The position numbers and the translations under genes are program-made. A DNA stretch of 64,000 nt from NCBI RefSeq assembly GCF_005796225.1, contig NZ_VAHO01000007.1:1-64000 (forward strand), written 5' to 3'. Positions 32,946-49,746 of this stretch are shown here, in pieces; the stretch's first letter is position 1, and every line of letters starts with the position of its first letter. Below the pieces are notes generated by a model, which was given only the letters and a program-made list of their open reading frames with translations, did not search any database and had not been told where the DNA came from. This DNA comes from Pseudarthrobacter sp. NamE5. Its GTDB lineage: Bacteria > Actinomycetota > Actinomycetes > Actinomycetales > Micrococcaceae.

Positions 32946-33806
32946 TCAGGCGGCGGCAGGCAGGGGCGCCGGAGATGAGGCAGCCGTCAGCAGCTGGGTG
33001 GCGCAGGCGCCCGCCGCGGAAGCCGCAGCAACCAGGAGCCCCAGCCGGACGCCGTCGTACGCTGCGGCGTCGCCGATGGCCCAGATCCCCGGAACCGACG
33101 TGCGGAAGCCGTCGCTGATGACAATCCCGCCATTGGCAGCGGTCCGCAGGCCGGCGCTTGCCGCGAGCCCGTCCCGTGAGACCCGCTCCTCCGCCAGGAC
33201 CACCAGGTCCCCGTTCATGCTGCTGCCGTCCTCGAAGATCACAGCGGACGCGGCGGGGCCTGCGGCGGACCTTGAGGGCACGATGGCGGCCGGTCGGGCC
33301 GTGGTGCGGATGGGCCGCACGCCCCTGGCGCGCAGCACTGCTTCAGCCTGGCCCGCTGCGGCGCCGGTACCCACCAGGATCCCCAGCGGACGTCGGCCCA
33401 ATTCCCGGGCCACCGCACTGACGGCTTCCCCGATGCGGGCAGCGTCGTCGATGGTGGAGTAGTTCAAGCACTGGGCAGCTCCTTCCACCGGATTGGCCAC
33501 GGGAGCCGAGCCGGTGGCAATGACCAGCTGGTCGTACGCGAATTCCATGCCGTCCGCGGTGGCAACGGTCCGGTTGACGGCGTCGATGTGGCTTGCGGGC
33601 TGGCCGAACCGGACCGAAACCTGCGGCAGCAGCGCCAGTTCCAGCAGCTCCTCCGGAGTATCGTCCCGGTTGCTCAGCACGGTGATGGTTCCGGCGAATT
33701 GGGCACGGCCAAGCTGCCTGACCAGAGCCTGGGCGGCAGGACCTGCTCCGGCGATGACTATGCGGGTGGCGGGGACGGTGGAGGGGGAGGGTGCCGGAGC
33801 GGACAT
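32946..33806 (-). CDS. Compact FAD-dependent oxidoreductase of the nitrite cluster
   Basis: A 286-aa flavoprotein related to the FAD/NAD half of NirB. It keeps the first dinucleotide motif [18 protein letters not shown], the ATGSAP motif and the second FAD motif [17 protein letters not shown]. The segment that in NirB reads YDRVALSKAL is missing, and the NAD-binding motif is altered ([16 protein letters not shown]). About 100 residues of the normal ~400-residue module are absent, and no Fe-S or siroheme part follows. It lies downstream of nnaR-like, cobA and nirB on the same strand, and carries GlnR-like half-sites about 80-140 nt upstream, so it probably serves nitrogen metabolism. Its partner and reaction are unknown. 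Confidence 0.75.
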
Positions 33807-33886
33807 GTGCTGGCCCTTTCGCTGGCGGCCGTTGACGGCCGGAACTTCGTGATGGACTCAGCGTAGGACCCTGCTTTTTCCAATGT

Positions 33887-33945
33887 GTTTCCCCGCAGTT
33901 GCTTTCTAACAGGCCTGTGTTCGCCAGTATTTACCGGCCGGTAAC
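33887..33945 (-). promoter_or_regulatory. GlnR-like half-sites upstream of the compact oxidoreductase
   Basis: On the minus strand GCAAC-6nt-GAAAC spans 33902-33887, and GTTAC-6nt-GTAAA spans 33945-33930. Both have the 5-6-5 spacing known for actinobacterial GlnR boxes. The second pair overlaps the palindrome TTACCGGCCGGTAA (33931-33944). Confidence 0.45.
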
Positions 33946-34019: not shown

Positions 34020-35168
34020 TTAGACCCGGATGCGGTAGCCGCGCTTCACGACGGTCTCCACCAGCCGCCCGTCCGGAAGCGAGGAACGCAGCCGGCTCAC
34101 CGTCATGTCCAGCGCGTGGACCGAACCCCGGAGTTCCAGCAGTTCGGACAGCGATTCGCGGGACAGCACCGCGCCGCCGGCACCCAGCAGTGCGCGGAGC
34201 AGCAGCAGCGGCGCGGGTGCCAGTTCCACGGGCTGGCCATCGATGCGCAGGCTGCGGCCACGGAGCTCAATGTTGCCGGACCGGGTATCCAGCCGCCGGA
34301 CGTGGTTCAGGGCGAGGTGCTCGCATACCAGCCTGATCAGGGCGCCCATGCGAAAACGTTCCGGGATGAGCGGCGTCACCCCGGCGTCGAGCAGGGGCTG
34401 GGCCGTGACAGGGCCCACCACCGCGGTGGTGACGCTGGTTTTCAGAGTGTCGATGAGTTGCTTGTAGACGCCCATCTCGTGCGCGGTGCTCCAGAGGGCA
34501 TCGACGGCGGGCGCGCTGGTGAAGGTGAGGACGTCGAGGTTACCGCTGCACACGGCTTCGATGAGGCGGGGGAGCCTGTCCTCGCCGTCGGGCTTGACCC
34601 AGCGGTACGGGGTGACCGTGAGCACTGTGGCGCCGGACATGCGGAGGCGCTCAAGCTGCCTGACATCGGTGTAGCCGTGCAGCTGGACGGCGACTGTCTT
34701 GCCCCGGACGCCCTCGGCCAGCAGCATGTCCACCAGTGTTGCGGTGGTTTCGTCGCTGCTGATTCCGACGTCGGCAAGGCCGGCCGCGCGCACGGCACCG
34801 CGCGCTTTCGGTCCCCGGACGAACATCCGGCAACTGCCCAGGACTTCCAGCAACTGCTCGCCGATGCCAAAGGAATCCGCGGCCTCGCACCAGCGGCGCA
34901 TGCCATACGCGGTGGTGGCGATGCACAGGTCCGGCGTGGCCTCGATGATGGCCCTGGTGTCATCGATGAGCCGCATGTCCTCCTGCACGGGGGCGATCTT
35001 AAGGGCGGGGGCGTGCAGTACCTCAGCTCCGCGCCGTTCCAGGGCCTCGATGAGGTCGCTGGAGCGGCGGTCGGAGGTGACCCCGATGCGGAAGCCCTCC
35101 AGGGGTGATTCCGAGGTCTCCGGTGCTTCGTCAACCCGCGGGGCGTCGGCAGGGGCAAGTGCAGTCAT
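34020..35168 (-). CDS. nnaR: HemD-winged-helix fusion regulator, NnaR-like
   Basis: A 382-aa protein. Residues about 25-265 are a uroporphyrinogen-III synthase (HemD) domain (GFRIGVTSDRRSSDLIEALERRGAEVLHAP, TSAPAVDALW, VGPVTAQPLLDAGV). The last ~95 residues are an OmpR-type winged helix (LDTRSGNIELRGRSLRIDGQ...SRESLSELLELRGSVHALDMTVSRLRSSL). This architecture is that of NnaR, which works with GlnR to activate nitrite/nitrate assimilation in Streptomyces and mycobacteria. It is followed by a gap and preceded by cobA and nirB on the same strand, supporting that role. I chose 35168; a GTG at 35186 would overlap cobA by 4 nt. Residual synthase activity for siroheme cannot be excluded. Confidence 0.82.
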   Translation of the reverse strand: MTALAPADAPRVDEAPETSESPLEGFRIGVTSDRRSSDLIEALERRGAEVLHAPALKIAPVQEDMRLIDDTRAIIEATPDLCIATTAYGMRRWCEAADSFGIGEQLLEVLGSCRMFVRGPKARGAVRAAGLADVGISSDETTATLVDMLLAEGVRGKTVAVQLHGYTDVRQLERLRMSGATVLTVTPYRWVKPDGEDRLPRLIEAVCSGNLDVLTFTSAPAVDALWSTAHEMGVYKQLIDTLKTSVTTAVVGPVTAQPLLDAGVTPLIPERFRMGALIRLVCEHLALNHVRRLDTRSGNIELRGRSLRIDGQPVELAPAPLLLLRALLGAGGAVLSRESLSELLELRGSVHALDMTVSRLRSSLPDGRLVETVVKRGYRIRV

Positions 35169-35182
35169 GGGGGTCAATCCTT

Positions 35183-36217
35183 TCACGAACCCAGCAGCGA
35201 GGCCGCCAGCCGGTCCAGGTCGGCTGCGGCCCCGGCATGACCGCGGTTGGCCTCAGCCACCCGAACCACCTCGCCGATAACCAGTACGGCAGGGTTGCTG
35301 CACCCGGCAGCGGCGGAGGCGATGGTGCCCAGGTCGGCAATGGTGGTTCGCTGTCCGGGCCGGTACCCGCGCTCCACCACTGCCATGGGCATGTCGGGGC
35401 GCATCCCGGCCCGGCGCAGTCCTGCCGCGAGCTGGTGGAGGGTGCCGATGCCCATCAGCACCACGATGGTTCCGCCCAGGCCGGCAAGGTGTTCGTGTTC
35501 CTTGGCGGTCAGCGGGGCGTGCCCGGAGACCACGGTAAACATATGGCTCACTTCCCGATGTGTGACCGGGATGCCTGCGGCGGCCGGGACCGAGATGGCG
35601 CTGGTAACCCCGGAGATCACGCGGACTTTGACGCCGGCTGCCACACAGGCTGCAACTTCCTCGCCGCCCCGGCCAAAGACGTAGGGGTCCCCGCCCTTGA
35701 GCCGGACCACGTTGTTGCCGGCCAGTGCGCTTTCCACCATGAGCTTTTCAATCTCGCCCTGGCTCACCTTGTGGTGGCCCGGCTTCTTGCCCACGTCCAC
35801 CAGCTCGGCCGACGTCAGGGACGGGAGCTCCTGGTACGGCGCCAGCCGGTCGTAGAACACCACGTCGGCGTCGCGGAGGACCTTGGTGGCGGCGACGGTA
35901 AGGAGCTCCGTGGTGCCGGGGCCGCCGCCCACCAGGGTTACCTGGCCGGGGGCGCCGGCGGCGGGTTCGGCGGCGACGGGAATGCCGGCTGCACGGCACC
36001 GGTCCAGGAGATTGTCCCAGCCGGGCTGTCCGTCCTCCACCGCGGCCACCAGGAAGGGGCGTTCGGGCAGCGGCCCGTCAAACGGACCGCCCTGGGGACT
36101 GCTCAGGCGGGAGACGACGGCGCCCGCGGCCTGGTAGCGGCGCACCGCCTGCCGCGCTGCCTGGTCCGAGCCGGTCACCAGTACTTCCCGGCCAGTGAGA
36201 TCAATGCTGAGCTGCAT
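35183..36217 (-). CDS. cobA: Uroporphyrinogen-III C-methyltransferase (siroheme synthesis)
   Basis: A 344-aa protein of CysG-like layout. The N-terminal ~90 residues are a reduced precorrin-2 dehydrogenase-like domain (LTGREVLVTGSDQAARQAVRRYQAAGA) with a slightly degenerate Rossmann motif. The C-terminal ~250 residues are a SAM-dependent methyltransferase: VTLVGGGPGTTELLTVAATKVLRDADVVFYDRL, VRLKGGDPYVFGRGGEE and VVLMGIGTL. It makes precorrin-2 for siroheme, the cofactor of NirB encoded just upstream (2-nt gap). The start at 36217 is set by that junction. Whether the N-terminal domain still oxidises precorrin-2 is uncertain. Confidence 0.88.
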   Translation of the reverse strand: MQLSIDLTGREVLVTGSDQAARQAVRRYQAAGAVVSRLSSPQGGPFDGPLPERPFLVAAVEDGQPGWDNLLDRCRAAGIPVAAEPAAGAPGQVTLVGGGPGTTELLTVAATKVLRDADVVFYDRLAPYQELPSLTSAELVDVGKKPGHHKVSQGEIEKLMVESALAGNNVVRLKGGDPYVFGRGGEEVAACVAAGVKVRVISGVTSAISVPAAAGIPVTHREVSHMFTVVSGHAPLTAKEHEHLAGLGGTIVVLMGIGTLHQLAAGLRRAGMRPDMPMAVVERGYRPGQRTTIADLGTIASAAAGCSNPAVLVIGEVVRVAEANRGHAGAAADLDRLAASLLGS

Positions 36218-36219
36218 GC

Positions 36220-38862
36220 CTATGCCTCGATTCCGGTGTTTTCCGGCGTGCCGGGGCGGACCGGGATGGAGGCCCCGATCAGGACCTTCCCCTTCTCCTC
36301 CAGGGTGGCGGGGCGCATCTGGCCGCGCTCGTCCGGGACGAAGGTGATGGAATCGTCCTTCTGGTCGGGGGCATTGACGAAGGAACGGAACCGGCGAAGG
36401 CGCTCGGGATCCTTCAGGGTGTCTGCCCACTCATCGATGTAGGTGTCCACGTGCTTCGCCATCGCTGCCTCGAGGTCGGCTGCGATGCCAAGGGTGTCCT
36501 TCACGACGACGTCCTCGACGTGCTTGATGCCGCCGTCGAGCTCCTCCTGCCAGCGGGCGGTGCGCTGCAGCCGGTCCGCCGTGCGGATGTAGTACATGAA
36601 GTAGCGGTCTATGTACTTGATCAGGGTCTCGTCGTCGAGGTCCTTGGCCAGCAGCTGGGCGTGGGCCGGAGTGGCACCGCCGTTGCCGCCGACGTACAGG
36701 TTCCAGCCGTCGGCGGTGGCGATGACGCCCACGTCCTTGCCCCGGGCCTCGGCGCATTCCCGGGCACAGCCGGAAACGCCCATCTTGAGCTTGTGCGGGC
36801 TCCGCAGGCCGCGGTAGCGCAGTTCCAGCTGGATGGCCATGGCCACCGAGTCCTGGACGCCGAAGCGGCACCAGGTGGAACCGACACATGACTTCACGGT
36901 GCGCAGGCTCTTGCCGTAGGCCTGGCCGGACTCAAAGCCCGCGTCCACCAGTTCCTTCCAGATCTCCGGCAGCTGCTCCAGCCGGGCGCCGAACATGTCG
37001 ATCCGCTGGCCGCCGGTGATCTTCGTGTACAGGTTGTACTTCTCGGCAACGGCGGCGATCACGCCGAGCTTCTTGGGGGTGATCTCGCCGCCAGCAATGC
37101 GGGGGACCACCGAGTAGGTGCCGTCCTTTTGCATGTTGGCCAGGGCCCGGTCGTTGGTGTCCTGCAGGGTGCCGCGGCCGGCGTCCAGGACGTAGGCGCT
37201 GTTCTGGCTCGCCAGAATGTTGGCAATGGTGGGCTTGCAGATGTCGCAGCCTGCGCCGGTGCCGTACTTGGCCATGATCTCCTCGAAGGAGGTGAGCTCC
37301 AGGACGCGGATGGCGTCGAAGAGTTCCTGCCGGGAGAGTTCTATGTGCTCGCAGAGGGCCTTGGAAAATTCAACGCCGGACCTGGTCAGCTCGCTTTCCA
37401 GCAGCTTCTTCAGCATTGGCACGCAGGAACCGCACTGGGTGCCGGCCCGGGTGCAGCCCTTCAGCTCGCCGAGCTCCTGGACAGGGGCATTGCCCTCGCA
37501 GGCGCCGCAGCCGTTGATCGTATCGCGGATGGTTCCGGCGGTGACGTTGTTGCAGGAGCAGAGGGTGGCGTCGTCCGGAAGTTCGGTTTCAGGGGCGTCA
37601 CCGCCGCCGGCTGCATTGAGGAACGCGCCGGGCTCGGCGGGAAGTTCGCGGCCCAGGAGCGGACGCAGGCTCATGTACGGGGAGGCGTCGCCGACGAAGA
37701 TGCCGCCCAAGAGGGTCTTGGCGTCGTCAGTGGTAACGATCTTCTGGTAGACGCCGCGGGCGGGGTCCGCATAGACGATCTCGAGCGCGTGCTCGGTCTT
37801 GGCGAAAGCGTCGCCAAAGCTGGCAACGTCCACGCCGGAGAGCTTAAGCTTGGTGGCGGTGTCGAAGCCTGGGAAGGTGGCGTCGCCGCCGTGGAGCCGG
37901 TCTGCCACAATTTCCGCCATGGTGTTGGCCGGGGCCACCAGGCCAAGGCACATGCCGCCGAAATTGGCAACCTCGCCAATGGCCCAGATGCCGGGGACTT
38001 CCGTTGCGCAATAGTCGTTGATGGCCACGCCGCCGCGCTGGCCCAGGCTGAACACCTGCTCCTCGCCTTCGGCGGCGCGGAAAAGCTCGTCGCGCGGCCG
38101 GACGCCGATGGCGACGATCACGATGTCCGCGTCGATGACCCGGCCGTCCGCCATGAGGACACCGGTGACCTGGCCGTCGTCATCGGAAATCACCTCGGAC
38201 GGGAACACGCCGCCGTGAACCTCAAAGCCCTTGGCTTTGATCAGGCGGCCCATCGCCTGGCCCGCACCCTCGTCAAGCTGTGTGGCCATCAACCACTGCG
38301 AGCCGTCGATGACTATCGGATTTGCGCCCAGCAGCTCGGTGCCGGCAGCCGATTCGAGCCCCAGCAGGCCGCCGCCGATGGTGACGGCGTTGACCTTGCG
38401 GCCCAGCTTTTCGCGCAATTCCGCGATGGCCTTGTTGATGGCCCAGACATCCTCAAGGGTCCGGTAGACGTGCGTCTTGTCCGCTCCGGGGATGGGAAGG
38501 CGGGCCGCATTGGACCCGGTGGCCACCACCAGTTCGTCATAGGGGTAGCTGCCGCCTGCTGCGGTTTCCACCGTCTTGGCTTCCGCATTGATCTTGACCA
38601 CGCGTTCGCCCGTCTTCAGTTCCAGGGACGGGTGATCCCACATGGAAGCCGTGCCAAGGGTCAGGTCGACGTCCTTGTCAGTAAGGGCCTTGGACAGAGC
38701 GACCCGGTCATAGGGAAGGTGGACCTCTTCGGTGAGCACGGTGACATGCCAGCCATCGAGGCCACGGGCATGCATCGCGTCGGCGAAGCGGTGGGCTGCC
38801 GGGCCGCCACCGGCGACGACGATGCGGCGCGGAGTCTCTGTACGGGATGTCTGTTCGGTCAC
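36220..38862 (-). CDS. nirB: NADH-dependent nitrite reductase large subunit
   Basis: An 880-aa assimilatory nitrite reductase that converts nitrite to ammonium with NAD(P)H. It has an FAD motif VVAGGGPAAHRF near residue 15, an NAD motif TIGGGLLGLESAAG near 161, a BFD-type [2Fe-2S] domain with Cys 435, 437, 470, 477 and 480, and a siroheme/[4Fe-4S] domain with Cys 659 and 665 (CVGSTWC) plus Cys 699 and 703 (CARECAEA). All cluster ligands are intact. It heads a minus-strand series with cobA and the NnaR-like gene, and has three GAAAC boxes in 11-nt phase upstream. The small subunit lies on the other strand. Confidence 0.95.
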   Translation of the reverse strand: MTEQTSRTETPRRIVVAGGGPAAHRFADAMHARGLDGWHVTVLTEEVHLPYDRVALSKALTDKDVDLTLGTASMWDHPSLELKTGERVVKINAEAKTVETAAGGSYPYDELVVATGSNAARLPIPGADKTHVYRTLEDVWAINKAIAELREKLGRKVNAVTIGGGLLGLESAAGTELLGANPIVIDGSQWLMATQLDEGAGQAMGRLIKAKGFEVHGGVFPSEVISDDDGQVTGVLMADGRVIDADIVIVAIGVRPRDELFRAAEGEEQVFSLGQRGGVAINDYCATEVPGIWAIGEVANFGGMCLGLVAPANTMAEIVADRLHGGDATFPGFDTATKLKLSGVDVASFGDAFAKTEHALEIVYADPARGVYQKIVTTDDAKTLLGGIFVGDASPYMSLRPLLGRELPAEPGAFLNAAGGGDAPETELPDDATLCSCNNVTAGTIRDTINGCGACEGNAPVQELGELKGCTRAGTQCGSCVPMLKKLLESELTRSGVEFSKALCEHIELSRQELFDAIRVLELTSFEEIMAKYGTGAGCDICKPTIANILASQNSAYVLDAGRGTLQDTNDRALANMQKDGTYSVVPRIAGGEITPKKLGVIAAVAEKYNLYTKITGGQRIDMFGARLEQLPEIWKELVDAGFESGQAYGKSLRTVKSCVGSTWCRFGVQDSVAMAIQLELRYRGLRSPHKLKMGVSGCARECAEARGKDVGVIATADGWNLYVGGNGGATPAHAQLLAKDLDDETLIKYIDRYFMYYIRTADRLQRTARWQEELDGGIKHVEDVVVKDTLGIAADLEAAMAKHVDTYIDEWADTLKDPERLRRFRSFVNAPDQKDDSITFVPDERGQMRPATLEEKGKVLIGASIPVRPGTPENTGIEA

Positions 38863-38944
38863 TGATGGGCCTTTCGCATGGGCCGCAGGCAGTTTTCCCT
38901 GCAGCCTTCATTGACGAGCTGTCCATCCAGACTAGGAAGCCGCA

Positions 38945-38982
38945 GTTTCGCTTCAGTTTCCCGATTGTTTCGTCAGCTTAAC
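38945..38982 (-). promoter_or_regulatory. Putative GlnR operator upstream of nirB
   Basis: On the minus strand three GAAAC pentamers occur (plus-strand GTTTC at 38945, 38956 and 38967), with a fourth, GTTAA, at 38978. All start exactly 11 bp apart with 6-nt spacers. This matches the GAAAC/GTnAC-6nt repeat pattern known for GlnR. It lies 83-120 bp upstream of nirB and also faces nirD. Confidence 0.65.
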
Positions 38983-39137
38983 TTCTGCATCACGAACGCA
39001 TTTCCGGCTGCGTGAGGTGTCTTTTACGTGCTGGACACATTGGCTGCACGCCTGTGAAACACCCGGCGCCTAGCGTGGATTACGGCTGCAGAAGGGGCCA
39101 ATGAGAAGGACTATACGCACAGGGAGAGGAGCCGGAC

Positions 39138-39512
39138 ATGACGGCAACACTGGAACTTGGGGCACTTGAAGCCGGCCTGGACGAGGCCGCATCCGGCTGG
39201 CACAGCGTCTGCACGGTCGAGGACCTGGAACCGGCCTGGGGTGAAGCGGCGCTGATCGCAGGCCGCCAGGTTGCCCTCTTCCGCACGGGTGCCACCGAGG
39301 TTTTCGCAGTGGCACACGAGGACCCCGCCACCGGCGCACATGTCATGGCCCGGGGCATCCTGGGCTCGAAAGGCGCCCGTCCCACCATTGCCTCGCCCCT
39401 GCACAAAGAGGTCTACGACCTTGAAACCGGTGAGTGCTTCAGCACTCCGGGCTTGAGCCTGGCGACCTTCCGCACGCGGATCGTGAGCGGCTGCGTCCAG
39501 GTTCAGCTGTAG
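39138..39512 (+). CDS. nirD: Nitrite reductase small subunit NirD
   Basis: A 124-aa NirD, the Rieske-fold partner of NirB. The sequence has the expected layout: WHSVCTVEDLEPAWGEAALIAGRQVALFRT, EVFAVAHEDP, then SPLHKEVYDLETGECFS. It lacks the paired CxH/CxxH Rieske ligands, which is normal for NirD. AGGAG lies about 8 nt before the ATG. It is divergent from nirB rather than downstream of it, and its stop is only 6 nt from that of the convergent phosphomutase. Confidence 0.9.
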   Translation: MTATLELGALEAGLDEAASGWHSVCTVEDLEPAWGEAALIAGRQVALFRTGATEVFAVAHEDPATGAHVMARGILGSKGARPTIASPLHKEVYDLETGECFSTPGLSLATFRTRIVSGCVQVQL

Positions 39513-44380: not shown

Positions 44381-45943
44381 TCAGGCGGCTGAGACCGCCT
44401 GGAAGTGTTTTTCGATGAGCCCCTTGATGTCCTCGTGGCAGCCGCCGCAGCCGGTGCCGGCGCGCGTTACCTTGGAGACTTCGGCCACGGTGGCGCAGCC
44501 ATCCTCCACCGCCCCCTGGATCGTGGCCCCGCTGACGCCGGCGCACCGGCACACGGTGCCTTCCGGGCTGGCGGGGCCGGAGCCGGGAAGCTGGTCCGGC
44601 CCGTCGAGGCGCAGGAGGAGGGACCTGTCCGCGGGCAGTTCCGCGCCGCGCTCAAACAATCCCACCAGCTCCGCGGCAGTGCGGGGCATTCCCACCGCGA
44701 CCAGGCCTTCAAGGACCCCGCCGCGGGTGGTCATCTTGACGTAGCGGCCGTGTTCCGGGTCCGCCCACTGGGCAATCTGCAGGCGGGGACGGCCGTTGAC
44801 AGCGCCGGCGGCCAGCACGTCCTCATCCCAGGGCTCTGCGGAATTGTCCCCGGCCACCGCCATGTTCATGCCGCGGGCTTTGAGGACGATCACGCCAGCC
44901 TGCTCGGCGGGCAGTTCAGGCAGGAGGTCTGCGTCTTCCTGTACTGCTGATGCCAGCCGGCCCAGGTATTCGGCGAGCCATTCGGCCTGCCGCCAGCCGG
45001 GCCCCACCAGCCCGGACGGGCCTTTGGCGCTGCGGCAGCGGGTGCAGTCCGGGTCCGGGCAGCGGACCTCGGCGCAGTCACCGATGGCAAAGATGTGCGG
45101 CTCATGGTGGGCACGGAGTTTGTGGTCCACCAGGATGCCCGCGGATGTGGACAGCCCGCAGCCCTCGGCAAGTTCGGTTCGGGGACGGACACCGCACGAG
45201 ATGACCAGGAGGTCGCCGTCGATCGCTGACCCGTCGTCGAGCAGCAAAGCCGAGAAGCCGCCGTCGGGCGCGTTGTGCTCCACGCCCGTGGAGCGGGCGT
45301 TGCCGGCCACGCGGACGCCGCAGCGGCGGAGGCTCGCGGCGAGGACGGCGCCGCCGCCGCGGTCGATGTTGCGGCCCAGCGGGTGCGGCCCGTTGTGCAC
45401 CACGGTGACAGTGGCTCCCTCCTCCGCCGCGGCCAGGGCGGTTTCCAGGCCCAGCACGCCGCCGCCCAGGACCACCACCCGCTTCCCGCCGTCCACCGCC
45501 CGGCGCAGGGCCTCGGCGTCGCGCAGGTCGCGCAGCGCGGTGACCCCTGCCGGAAGCACAGGGGAGGTGGGGTCCGGGTTGATGCCGGTCAGGTTGGGGA
45601 TGACCGGTCGTGACCCCGTGGCAAAGACGAGGCGGTCATAGTGCGCAGCTGCGCCGTTGGACAGGAGGACCTGCTGCCGGGCCCGGTCCACCCGCCGCAC
45701 GCGCACTCCGAGGCGCACGTCCACCCCGTCGGCTGCCAGGGCTGCGGCGTCGGAGAGGGCCAGCGCCTCGGCTGTGGTGCGTCCCACGCCAAGGTCGGCA
45801 ACCAGCACCCGGTTGTAGGCAGCTTCTGCTTCGTCGCCCACGACTGTCAGGGCCACCATGCCGCTGCGGACGGCGGGCAGCAGCTCATCCACCAGCCGGG
45901 CGGCCACCGGACCGAATCCCACAATGACAATCTGCTCGCTCAT
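44381..45943 (-). CDS. nasB: FAD-dependent nitrate reductase electron-transfer subunit (NasB-like)
   Basis: A 520-aa flavoprotein with the NirB-type FAD/NAD module (IVIVGFGPVAARLVDELL; VVVLGGGVLGLETALAAAEEGA; EPHIFAIGDCAEV) and a C-terminal BFD-type [2Fe-2S] domain with Cys 465, 467, 499 and 502. It has no siroheme domain. It overlaps the nitrate reductase gene by 4 nt, so it most likely passes electrons from NAD(P)H to that enzyme. An extra CxxC pair (CPDPDCTRC) in mid-protein may add another metal site. The symbol follows the Klebsiella/Bacillus convention by analogy. Confidence 0.82.
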   Translation of the reverse strand: MSEQIVIVGFGPVAARLVDELLPAVRSGMVALTVVGDEAEAAYNRVLVADLGVGRTTAEALALSDAAALAADGVDVRLGVRVRRVDRARQQVLLSNGAAAHYDRLVFATGSRPVIPNLTGINPDPTSPVLPAGVTALRDLRDAEALRRAVDGGKRVVVLGGGVLGLETALAAAEEGATVTVVHNGPHPLGRNIDRGGGAVLAASLRRCGVRVAGNARSTGVEHNAPDGGFSALLLDDGSAIDGDLLVISCGVRPRTELAEGCGLSTSAGILVDHKLRAHHEPHIFAIGDCAEVRCPDPDCTRCRSAKGPSGLVGPGWRQAEWLAEYLGRLASAVQEDADLLPELPAEQAGVIVLKARGMNMAVAGDNSAEPWDEDVLAAGAVNGRPRLQIAQWADPEHGRYVKMTTRGGVLEGLVAVGMPRTAAELVGLFERGAELPADRSLLLRLDGPDQLPGSGPASPEGTVCRCAGVSGATIQGAVEDGCATVAEVSKVTRAGTGCGGCHEDIKGLIEKHFQAVSAA

Positions 45944-48183
45944 GAGGCCTCCGTCGTCTGAAGCACGTTGGTGGAACGGGGGACGGTAACGGGCCGGACC
46001 CACACGTTGTTGAACTTGAATTCGGGCATTCCGGAAATGGGGTCGGTGGCGGCCTCGGTGAGGCGGTTTGCGCTTTCCAGCTCCGGGAAGTGGAAGGGCA
46101 GGAAGACCGTTTCGGGGCGGATGGCGTTGCTGAGTTCCGCCCGGCACACCACCTCGCCGCGCTCGTTGGCCACGGACACGAAAGCCCCTTCGGTGATGCC
46201 CAGGGAGGCCGCTGCCGCCGGATGGATCTGCAGCTTCGCCTCCGGCTGCGATGCGAGCAGTTCCGTCACCCGCCGGGTCTGCGCCCCGGACTGATAGTGC
46301 TCCAGGAGGCGGCCGGTGATCAGGGTCATGGCCTGTGCGGCCGGGTCGGGGTCCGCGGCAGGAGTACGACGGCGGCGGGGCGCCACCGGGACCATCACGG
46401 CTTTGCCGTCGGCGTGGGCGAAGCTGTCCCGGAACAGGCGCGGAGTCCCGGTGCTGCCCGCGGGGTAGGGCCAGTAAGCGGCCTCGCCCCGGTCCAGCAT
46501 GGCGTAATCGATGCCCGAATAGTCGGCCAGCCCTCCGGCGGAGGCACGGCGGAGTTCTTGGAATACCGTTTCCGGGTCCTCGCTGTAGGTGGAGGGGGCG
46601 TCCAGGGCTTCGGCCAGCCGGGCCATGATCCAGAGCTCGCTGCGCGCACCGGGCGGCGGGGCCAGGGCACGGCGGCGGCGCAGCACCCGGCCCTCAAGAT
46701 TGGTCAGGGTGCCCTCCTCCTCCGCCCACTGAAGCACCGGGAGGATGAGGTCGGCCTCGGCCGCGGTCTCGGACATGAAGAAGTCGCAGACCATCAGGAA
46801 GTCCAGGCTGCGGAGCCCCTCGATCACGGCGCTGGCGTCGGGCGAAGCGACCGCAATGTTGGAGGCGTGGACGAAAAGGCAGCGGACGCCGTCGGGCTTT
46901 CCCAGCGACTTCAAAAGCTGGACGGCGGGCAGCCCGGGTCCGGGGATCAATTCCTCCGGGACACCCCACACGCCGGCAACATGTGCCCGGGCAGCAGGAT
47001 CGGTGATCTTGCGGTAGCCGGGCAACTGGTCGGCCTTCTGGCCGTGCTCGCGGCCGCCCTGGCCGTTGCCCTGGCCAGTGAGGGTGCCGTAGCCGCTGCG
47101 GGCAGACCCGGGCAGGCCCAGCAGGAGGCTCAGGTTGATGGCCGCGGTGGCGGTGTCGGTGCCGTCCACGTGCTGTTCCGCGCCACGGCCGGTCAGGATA
47201 TAGCTGCCGCCTTGGCGGGCACCCGCTGCGAGCCGGCGGGCCGTTTCCCGAATCAGGTCGGCGGGGACGCCGGTGAGGGACTGCACCCGCTCGGGCCAGA
47301 AGGAGTTGACGCTGCGGGCTACGGCACTGTAGCCGGAGGTCCGCTCCTGGAGGTAGGCCGTGTCCACCAGTTTCTCGTGGATGACCACGTGGGAGATGCC
47401 CAGCAGGAGGGCGAGGTCGGTGCCCGGCAAAGGCTGCAGGTGGATGCCGCCGCCGTCGGCCGTAAAAGCAGCCGTGGCGGAACGGCGGGGATCGACAACG
47501 ATCAGCCCGCCGGCGTCGCGCGTTCCCTTCAGGTGCTGCACGAAGGGCGGCATGGTCTCTGCCACGTTGGAGCCCAGCATCAGGATGGTGCTGGCCGTGT
47601 CCAGTGCCTCCAGCGGGAACGGCAGGCCGCGGTCCACTCCGAAGGCCCGCATTCCTGCGGCCGCGGCGGAGGACATGCAGAAGCGGCCGTTGTAGTCGAT
47701 GCGGGAGGTGCCCAAGGCGAGCCGGGCGAACTTGCCCAGCATGTAGGCCTTCTCATTGGTAAGGCCCCCGCCGCCGAAGACACCGACGGCGTCAGCACCG
47801 TAGCGTGCGCGGGCATCCCTGACAGCGGAGGCGGCCAGGTCCAGGGCCTGCTCCCAGCTGATGGGGCGGTGGACGCCGTCGCCGCCCTTCAGCAGGGGCT
47901 CGGTGATCCGGCCCGCGTGGTTCAGGAGGGTGGGGGAGGTCCAGCCCTTGCGGCAGAGGCCGCCGCGGTTGGTGGGAAAGTCGCGTCCCTGGACGGTGAG
48001 GGGCACCTCCGGGACGGGGGAGTTGACGGCGGACTGCCGTGCGGCGGGCGGCTTTGCTGCCATTGGTGCCGGCACGGGGTCTGGCCCCGGCTCGGGAGCC
48101 GGGGCCAGATCCTGGGAAGACGTGAGCGTCATGGCGCACTGCAGGGCGCAGTAGGGGCAGTGCGTGTCGGCGCTTTTGGTCAT
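45940..48183 (-). CDS. nasA: Assimilatory nitrate reductase catalytic subunit
   Basis: A 747-aa molybdopterin oxidoreductase reducing nitrate to nitrite. The N-terminal [4Fe-4S] motif is CPYCALQC (Cys 9, 12, 16), with a fourth Cys in RGGLCRKGW after an insert. Molybdopterin-binding regions are VGVFGGGGLTNEKAYMLGKFARLALGT, SNVAETMP and SLLLGLPG, and the C-terminal dinucleotide domain has LITGRLLEHYQSGAQTRR. The start at 48183 lies 1 nt after the narK stop and its own stop overlaps the FAD partner gene. An Ala/Pro-rich stretch of about 40 residues between the third and fourth cluster cysteines is an unusual insertion. Also called nasC in some genera. Confidence 0.9.
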   Translation of the reverse strand: MTKSADTHCPYCALQCAMTLTSSQDLAPAPEPGPDPVPAPMAAKPPAARQSAVNSPVPEVPLTVQGRDFPTNRGGLCRKGWTSPTLLNHAGRITEPLLKGGDGVHRPISWEQALDLAASAVRDARARYGADAVGVFGGGGLTNEKAYMLGKFARLALGTSRIDYNGRFCMSSAAAAGMRAFGVDRGLPFPLEALDTASTILMLGSNVAETMPPFVQHLKGTRDAGGLIVVDPRRSATAAFTADGGGIHLQPLPGTDLALLLGISHVVIHEKLVDTAYLQERTSGYSAVARSVNSFWPERVQSLTGVPADLIRETARRLAAGARQGGSYILTGRGAEQHVDGTDTATAAINLSLLLGLPGSARSGYGTLTGQGNGQGGREHGQKADQLPGYRKITDPAARAHVAGVWGVPEELIPGPGLPAVQLLKSLGKPDGVRCLFVHASNIAVASPDASAVIEGLRSLDFLMVCDFFMSETAAEADLILPVLQWAEEEGTLTNLEGRVLRRRRALAPPPGARSELWIMARLAEALDAPSTYSEDPETVFQELRRASAGGLADYSGIDYAMLDRGEAAYWPYPAGSTGTPRLFRDSFAHADGKAVMVPVAPRRRRTPAADPDPAAQAMTLITGRLLEHYQSGAQTRRVTELLASQPEAKLQIHPAAAASLGITEGAFVSVANERGEVVCRAELSNAIRPETVFLPFHFPELESANRLTEAATDPISGMPEFKFNNVWVRPVTVPRSTNVLQTTEAS

Positions 48184-48184
48184 G

Positions 48185-49660
48185 TTAGACGTGTCCCATC
48201 GCGTTTCGGTTGGCATTGCGGATGTAGCAGGCCCAGCAGACCGTGAGCATCAGGACGTAGGCCGCGACGAAGCCGTAGAAGGCGGGCGTGTAGGAGCCGC
48301 TGGCGGAGTTCGATGCGTTAAGGACCTGCGGGATCACGAATCCGCCGTAGGCGCCGATGGCCGAAATCAGGCCAAGGGCGGAGGATGCAAGGCGCTGGGT
48401 GGCCACCGAGCTGGCGCCCTTCCTGGCCGCCCGGCTGGAGGTTGCGAAGATGACCGGGATCATCCGGTAGGTGGCGCCGTTTCCGAAGCCGCTGGCGGTG
48501 AAGAGCATCAGGAAGAGGACCAGGAAGAGCCAGAAGTTCTTCAGCGGCAGGGTCCAGATCATGGTCAGGGTGATCACGGCCATGGCGGCGAAGGCTGCCA
48601 CGGTCATGCGGGCGCCGCCCATCCGGTCAGCCATCCGGCCGCCATAGGGCCGGGCAAGGGAACCGACCAGCGGGCCAAGGAAGGCCAGGGACAGTGCCAC
48701 GGTGCCCACTCCAATGGAGGAGAACGCGGGGAAGTAGTCCTTGATCAGCTTGGGGAATACTCCGGCGAAGCCGATGAAGGAGCCAAAGGTGCCGATGTAC
48801 AGCAGCGCCATGATCCACAGGTGCGGTTCCTTGACAGCTGCCACCGAGCCGGCCACGTCCCCCTTGGCGCTGGTGAGGTTGTCCATGTACTTGAAGGCGC
48901 CGAATGCCGCGAGCAGGATCAGCGGAACCCACATCCAGCCCGCCAGGGGCAGGTTGACCGTTCCCGCGGCCAGCAGGGTGATGGCAATGGGCACGGCGAG
49001 CTGTGCGACGGCGGCTCCCATGTTTCCGCCGGCGGCGTTCAGGCCCAGCGCCCAGCCCTTTTCCCGTGCAGGGTAGAAGAAGGTGATGTTGGCCATGGAG
49101 CTGGCGAAGTTGCCGCCGCCGAAGCCGGCCAGCGCGGCGATGAGCAGCATGACACCAAAGGGAGTTTCCGGGTTGGAGACGCACAGGGCGAGGCCGATGG
49201 AGGGAATCAGGAGCAGCAGCGCGGAAACGATGGTCCAGTTGCGGCCGCCGAAGCGGGGAACCATGAAGGTGTAGGGGATGCGGAGGGTGGCGCCCACCAG
49301 GCTGGGCATGGAGATGAGCCAGAAGATCTCCGAGGTGGAGAACGTGAAGCCCGCTGCGGGGAGCTGGACCACCACGATGGACCAGAGCTGCCACACGACA
49401 AAGCCGAGGAATTCGGCGAAAATGGACCAGTTGAGGTTGCGGCGGGCAATGGCCCGGCCGGCGGTTGCCCACTGCTCCTTGTTCTCGGCGTCCCAGTTGG
49501 CGATCCAGCGGCCGGGGCGGAATTCAAGCGCGGGTGCGTCTGTGGTGCGGGTGGTGCCGGGCTGTGCGCTGGCGGATGCGGTGGCGGTTCCGGGCCTTGC
49601 GGTGTCGTCAAGATCAAGGGAATTGCCGGTGCCGGCATCAGCTGTGCGATCAACAGTCAC
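48185..49660 (-). CDS. narK: NarK-type nitrate/nitrite MFS transporter
   Basis: A 491-aa major facilitator with about 12 membrane segments. Both nitrate-signature regions are visible: AGFGGGNFASSMANITFFYPAREKG in the first half and SGFGNGATYRMIPVIF in the second. A polar N-terminal extension of about 70 residues precedes the first helix (LNWSIFAEFLGFVVWQLWSIVVV). The GTG at 49660 has GGAGG 6 nt upstream; a frame open to 49843 lacks this. It heads the operon narK-nasA-nasB, with 1-nt and overlapping junctions, and has a GlnR-like site about 70 nt upstream. Confidence 0.93.
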   Translation of the reverse strand: MTVDRTADAGTGNSLDLDDTARPGTATASASAQPGTTRTTDAPALEFRPGRWIANWDAENKEQWATAGRAIARRNLNWSIFAEFLGFVVWQLWSIVVVQLPAAGFTFSTSEIFWLISMPSLVGATLRIPYTFMVPRFGGRNWTIVSALLLLIPSIGLALCVSNPETPFGVMLLIAALAGFGGGNFASSMANITFFYPAREKGWALGLNAAGGNMGAAVAQLAVPIAITLLAAGTVNLPLAGWMWVPLILLAAFGAFKYMDNLTSAKGDVAGSVAAVKEPHLWIMALLYIGTFGSFIGFAGVFPKLIKDYFPAFSSIGVGTVALSLAFLGPLVGSLARPYGGRMADRMGGARMTVAAFAAMAVITLTMIWTLPLKNFWLFLVLFLMLFTASGFGNGATYRMIPVIFATSSRAARKGASSVATQRLASSALGLISAIGAYGGFVIPQVLNASNSASGSYTPAFYGFVAAYVLMLTVCWACYIRNANRNAMGHV

Positions 49661-49730
49661 GGGGTACCTCCTTCGGGGGATGTTGTCCTTCCAAAGTAGG
49701 GACGCCGCGTTTCGCAGACCGACGATGTTT

Positions 49731-49746
49731 GTTAACGAGCTGTGAC
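49731..49746 (-). promoter_or_regulatory. GlnR-like site upstream of narK
   Basis: On the minus strand GTCAC-AGCTCG-TTAAC has the 5-6-5 layout and the AC-9nt-AC core reported for actinobacterial GlnR boxes. It ends 70 nt before the narK start codon. Confidence 0.5.

Follow-up and report, generated by a model that had tools for sequence, protein, structure and literature searches.

Known promoters under GlnR and NnaR control

GlnR controls nirB in Mycobacterium smegmatis and M. tuberculosis (PMC3662644, PMC4950008), and its classical targets are glnA, amtB, ureA and nirB (PMC10704036). The operator at glnA and amtB of Streptomyces coelicolor follows an a-b-a-b order, gTnAc-n6-GaAAc-n6-GtnAC-n6-GAAAc, and the published standard GlnR element comprises two 22-bp boxes, that is, four half-sites (PMC10704036, PMC5826061). 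In the GlnR-controlled nas promoter of Amycolatopsis mediterranei, sites a1-b1-b2 are needed, and a2 is dispensable (PMC5826061).

Promoters of nirB, narK and other genes that combine GlnR with NnaR are known in S. coelicolor, M. smegmatis and M. abscessus. The defining architecture of NnaR is a HemD-like domain joined to an OmpR-type DNA-binding domain (PMC11162112). Its published motif, CTCAC[A/C]-16N-[T/G]GTGAG, lies a short, almost constant distance from GlnR boxes (PMC6277429, PMC11162112), and the two proteins bind cooperatively at the S. coelicolor nirB promoter (PMC10704036). The nirBD genes of M. tuberculosis are described as one operon (PMC4950008), and narK3-nirBD-nnaR-sirB forms one operon in M. 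abscessus (PMC11162112).

A phased GAAAC array upstream of nirB

The stretch of DNA analyzed here (the window) consists of 64,000 nucleotides from Pseudarthrobacter sp. NamE5. It carries nirB and nirD, nnaR, and siroheme, nitrate-reductase-like and narK genes together, and the region is therefore a nitrate/nitrite assimilation cluster (Table 1). The gene nnaR is located downstream of nirB in 75 relatives.

Table 1. Genes and predicted regulatory elements of the nitrite reductase locus, with comparable arrays (window coordinates unless a contig is given)
Feature	Position	Strand	Details
NirB-N-terminus-like NAD(P)/FAD oxidoreductase gene	32946..33806	-	286 aa; PF07992; partial TIGR02374 match; adjoins nnaR
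GlnR-type array GCAAC-n6-GAAAC-n6-GAAAA	33876..33902	-	10 bp before TACGCT (33860-33865); upstream of NirB-like gene
nnaR	34020..35186	-	388 aa; NF005568, 506.9 bits; PF02602 + PF00486 (HemD-like + OmpR-type DNA-binding domains)
Uroporphyrinogen-III C-methyltransferase gene (siroheme synthesis)	35183..36430	-	TIGR01469, 251.9 bits; downstream of nirB
nirB, nitrite reductase large subunit	36220..38862	-	TIGR02374, 904 bits
Predicted nirB -10 hexamer TAGTCT	38929..38934	-	Exactly 10 bp past last GAAAC; TAnnnT at such spacing in 81/81
nirB-proximal GlnR-type array GTTAA-n6-GAAAC-n6-GAAAC-n6-GAAAC	38945..38982	-	Elements kept in 81/81, 81/81, 80/81 and 74/81, the first two counts partly by construction (search anchor)
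Probable NnaR palindrome CTCAC-18N-GTGAT	38989..39016	.	Between two arrays, 6 bp from each; spacing as in published motif, half-sites the same but for last base
nirD-facing GlnR-type array TTTAC-n6-GACAC-n6-TGCAC-n6-GAAAC	39023..39060	+	
Predicted nirD -10 hexamer TAGCGT	39071..39076	+	Exactly 10 bp past last GAAAC; TAnnnT in 64/64 with strict core
nirD, nitrite reductase small subunit	39138..39512	+	TIGR02378, 88.3 bits; divergent from nirB
Flavoprotein gene	44381-46147		
Molybdopterin nitrate-reductase-like gene	45940-48216		
MFS transporter gene taken as narK	48185-49660		
Weaker GlnR-type array GTCAC-TTAAC-CGTCG-GAAAC	49709..49746	-	10 bp before TACTTT (49693-49698); 48 bp before narK
ATAAC-GAAAC-GAAAC array	contig C2:76753-76784 (L119)		10 bp before TACTGT; upstream of urease operon (ureA, ureB, ureC)

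The minus-strand reading of positions 38945-38982 is GTTAAgctgacGAAACaatcggGAAACtgaagcGAAAC. Within it, GTTAA (38978-38982) is followed by GAAAC at 38967-38971, 38956-38960 and 38945-38949, all four starting exactly 11 bp apart, and the array lies 83-120 bp upstream of the nirB GTG (38862). The initial annotation, which had pointed out these four elements, was exact as to coordinates and spacing. Its further view that four phased half-sites are longer than usual is ruled out by the four-half-site standard in the literature (PMC10704036, PMC5826061), and by the glnA array of the same genome.

Compared with the S. coelicolor operator, the order at nirB is a-b-b-b, with one GTTAA and then three GAAAC. 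As in the A. mediterranei nas promoter, one a-site and repeated b-sites appear to be enough for a nitrate/nitrite gene cluster; however, the position equivalent to the non-essential a2 is occupied here by a perfect b-type GAAAC.

The window contains two exact GAAAC-n6-GAAAC pairs, both inside the nirB array, whereas a third-order Markov model of the window predicts 0.11 per 64 kb (100 runs). No GAAAC triple arose in the 100 simulated 64-kb windows, and the triple is far beyond chance. Across the 4.06-Mb genome the pair occurs 11 times, versus six for a control pattern, and the only overlapping copies, which make up a triple, are those of the nirB array.

Conservation among relatives

A scan of a genome collection yielded 80 loci, almost all of which belong to Arthrobacter, Pseudarthrobacter or Paenarthrobacter; counts out of 81 refer to these plus the window. 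The search was anchored on the first two elements, GTTAA-n6-GAAAC, which match exactly once in every relative. A phased 11-bp array is found ahead of nirB in all 80 relatives, and in 81/81 sequences with the window included. Its distance to the nirB start varies from roughly 65 to 105 bp, whereas its internal spacing is constant. This comparison of nirB upstream regions had been proposed along with the initial annotation, and it revealed the pentamers and their 11-bp phase to be retained rather than lost in relatives.

Two local features of these alignments were also observed. The spacer GCAGAA (minus-strand reading, 38983-38988), between GTGAT and GTTAA, is near-invariant (0.989), whereas the other spacers are not, which suggests that an additional protein contact may occur at this position. 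Upstream of nirB in Arthrobacter bambusae (locus L069), a 17-bp tandem duplication of GTGATnCGGAAGTTAA breaks the 11-bp phase.

In a wider comparison across the order, a nirB relative was found in 201 of 248 genomes, and 40 loci supplied upstream regions. In 22 of the 40 (one from the same genus, and 21 of the 39 from other genera), the array reached a score attained by none of 200 shuffles.

One could suppose that the repeat arose by chance or was simply inherited within the lineage, and has no regulatory role. Common descent of the 80 close relatives means that agreement among them does not by itself count as independent evidence. However, the simulations gave no triples, the pentamer columns are better conserved than the array spacers (0.994 versus 0.848), and other genera show the layout again, built from different pentamers. 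We consider a repeat without function to be very improbable.

Predicted promoter geometry at nirB

The sequence ahead of the predicted nirB -10 element has no evident -35 consensus. The array itself, 10 bp from this hexamer, is placed as would fit an activator of the OmpR/PhoB type. In class II activation by PhoB at PHO boxes, 11-bp direct repeats replace the -35 element and lie about 10 bp from the -10 element, and activators of the PhoB/OmpR type recruit RNA polymerase directly. The nirB promoter is similar in that 11-bp repeats stand where a -35 element would be, at ~10 bp from the -10 element, although the regulator and signal differ.

A mirrored array facing nirD

The region between nirB and nirD carries a second array of the GlnR type, on the opposite strand. 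Its plus-strand pentamers TTTAC, GACAC, TGCAC and GAAAC begin at 39023, 39034, 39045 and 39056, again 11 bp apart. A strict core (GTGAG-n6-TTTAC-n6-GACAC) is present in 64/81 sequences, the misses being due mostly to a CTAAC variant of the adjoining half-site. The third half-site, TGCAC, is poorly conserved among the 64 strict-core sequences. Both arrays start 6 bp from opposite arms of one palindrome, in mirror image.

The initial annotation had placed a single array between nirB and a divergent nirD. The divergence is borne out in 79/80 relatives, but the idea of one array for both genes is ruled out, since a separate array and a separate predicted -10 hexamer face nirD, with the probable NnaR palindrome lying in between.

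The central palindrome

The palindrome reads CTCACG-16N-CGTGAT in the window. Its spacing is exactly that of the published NnaR motif; the final base (T versus G) and the inner flanking bases differ. GTGAT, upstream of the nirB array, is kept in 81/81 sequences, and CTCAC is found in 66/81, with CTAAC in the remainder (about 15). The chance expectation for such a palindrome in the window is 0.23, so its occurrence alone is not beyond chance. The palindrome is probably an NnaR site.

Other genera provide a further view of this element. Of the 21 other-genus nirB loci with a significant array, 19 have CTCAC at a distance of 32-34 bp upstream of it, and 11 have GTGMG 10-11 bp upstream; neither sequence entered into the array score. 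Several other genera carry the full CTCAC...GTGAG at the palindrome position. Eleven other-genus loci with an upstream, divergent nirD were examined, and in eight of them the best nirD-facing array lies exactly 11 bp from GTGAG, which is the mirror position. Outside the order, CTCAC at -34 accompanies an array in 4 of 20 nirB upstream regions, with GTGMG at -11 in three of those four, and none has an upstream nirD.

GlnR might instead run nirB from a longer array, with CTCAC-18N-GTGAT not being an NnaR site, and with GTGAT and a GAAAY upstream of it extending the array to five or six half-sites. The 11-bp phase does continue upstream through GTGAT (81/81) and GAAAT or GAAAC (76/81), and the S. 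coelicolor amtB promoter has three boxes (PMC5826061). However, the near-fixed CTCAC and the GTGMG at -10/-11 in other genera fit the inverted repeat of NnaR and not a direct repeat, and GAAAY is lost at that position in more divergent relatives, such as those represented by loci L069, L078 and L080. We therefore regard a longer array in place of an NnaR site as unlikely.

The arrangement of palindrome and arrays resembles that of known GlnR- and NnaR-dependent promoters, in which an NnaR palindrome closely precedes a GlnR box at a nearly constant distance, and the transcription start is downstream of the GlnR box (PMC6277429). It differs in that two divergent genes with mirrored arrays appear to share one palindrome.

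GlnR and comparable arrays elsewhere in the genome

The genome encodes GlnR (PF21695, 142.9 bits). The best solved relatives of this protein are 8hih and 8hig; its stretch GGTRTVDVHVRRLRAKLG is identical in 8hih, and alignment to 8hih shows a recognition-helix region identical to that of M. tuberculosis GlnR.

Similar arrays precede other nitrogen genes. The glnA promoter (contig C9, minus strand) carries GTAAC-GAAAC-GACAC-GAAAT, then 10 bp, then TAGGCT; no array was found at a second glnA-type gene on the same contig. Three ammonium-transporter (amt) genes are preceded by arrays. Two ammonium-transporter genes (contigs C67 and C16; loci L115 and L116) each have two separate array-like elements, located 138 bp and 85 bp upstream of the start in both, and these pairs recall the multi-box amtB promoter.

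An array like that at the NirB-like gene of the window is present in 51/75 relatives under a strict pattern. The array ahead of narK scores p = 0.005 with its -10 element and p = 0.049 alone. All p-values from the array score are approximate, because the score was picked manually with the nirB site already in view. A genome-wide pattern of two half-sites, 10 bp and TAnnnT has four matches, compared with none for a control. Three of them lie at nirB, the NirB-like gene and the urease operon, and the fourth is doubtful. The doubtful match (contig C13, near 341230) is probably due to chance, as its flanking genes have no evident nitrogen link.

Upstream of the array at the NirB-like gene, positions 33931-33944 form a perfect 14-bp palindrome, TTACCGGCCGGTAA. 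It occurs in 38/75 relatives (36 identical), in 31 of which the distance to the array match is exactly 53 bp. This element is possibly a site for a further regulator.

The presence of a GlnR gene, the phased conservation, the -10 hexamer at 10 bp and the same layout at further nitrogen genes such as glnA and ureA all support the proposal of the initial annotation that the GAAAC array is a GlnR operator, which it very probably is.

Another OmpR-type regulator, chiefly one of the MtrA or PhoP/RegX3 type, could use these arrays as operators, alone or in competition with GlnR. The genome encodes MtrA (395.9 bits) and a RegX3/PhoP-like regulator, which may recognize 11-bp repeats of a similar kind, their motifs overlapping that of GlnR. 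In mycobacteria, MtrA has a motif almost the same as that of GlnR and has been reported bound at nirB (PMC6277429). PhoP and GlnR also compete at S. coelicolor amtB (PMC5826061). Nevertheless, such arrays mark nitrogen genes in this genome (glnA, ureA, three amt genes, narK, nirB and nirD), and competition would add to GlnR rather than replace it. An assignment to one of these other regulators is, in our estimation, quite improbable.

Proposed bidirectional control of nirB and nirD

Our favored reading, to which we assign a probability of roughly 85%, is that the intergenic region is a bidirectional nitrogen-control region in which mirrored GlnR arrays around a shared NnaR palindrome co-activate both nitrite reductase genes. 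Under nitrogen limitation, GlnR would bind as tandem dimers to four 11-bp-spaced half-sites before nirB and four before nirD. Each array would stand in for a -35 element and end 10 bp before the -10 element, such that bound GlnR could recruit RNA polymerase directly. Both promoters would share a single NnaR dimer as coactivator, bound at the central palindrome 6 bp away from where each array starts. As a result, nirB and nirD, plus siroheme synthesis and nnaR downstream of nirB, would be switched on together. Protein binding, activation, cooperation between GlnR and NnaR, and shared use of one NnaR site are all inferred from the arrangement of sequence elements.

A more specific proposal is that one NnaR dimer co-activates the two mirrored GlnR promoters such that the two subunits, transcribed apart, are made in fixed ratio in response to nitrogen shortage as well as the NnaR signal, and that this device is conserved across several families of the order. 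We consider the chances of this proposal to be about even.

Neither GlnR boxes nor NnaR sites are new, and the two have been found paired before. The literature searched, which lacked most subscription journals, contained no case of one NnaR palindrome flanked by mirrored GlnR arrays for nirB and nirD, and the two-way layout seems to be undescribed so far. The same literature yielded no GlnR binding study in Arthrobacter-type soil bacteria.

The locus thus extends the GlnR/NnaR scheme of nitrate and nitrite control to Arthrobacter-type soil bacteria, with exact coordinates. The mirrored layout constitutes a natural test of how a single coactivator site might serve a pair of GlnR promoters. Moreover, nirB and nirD usually share one operon, and the layout suggests in simple terms how they may be kept in balance when they are transcribed apart.
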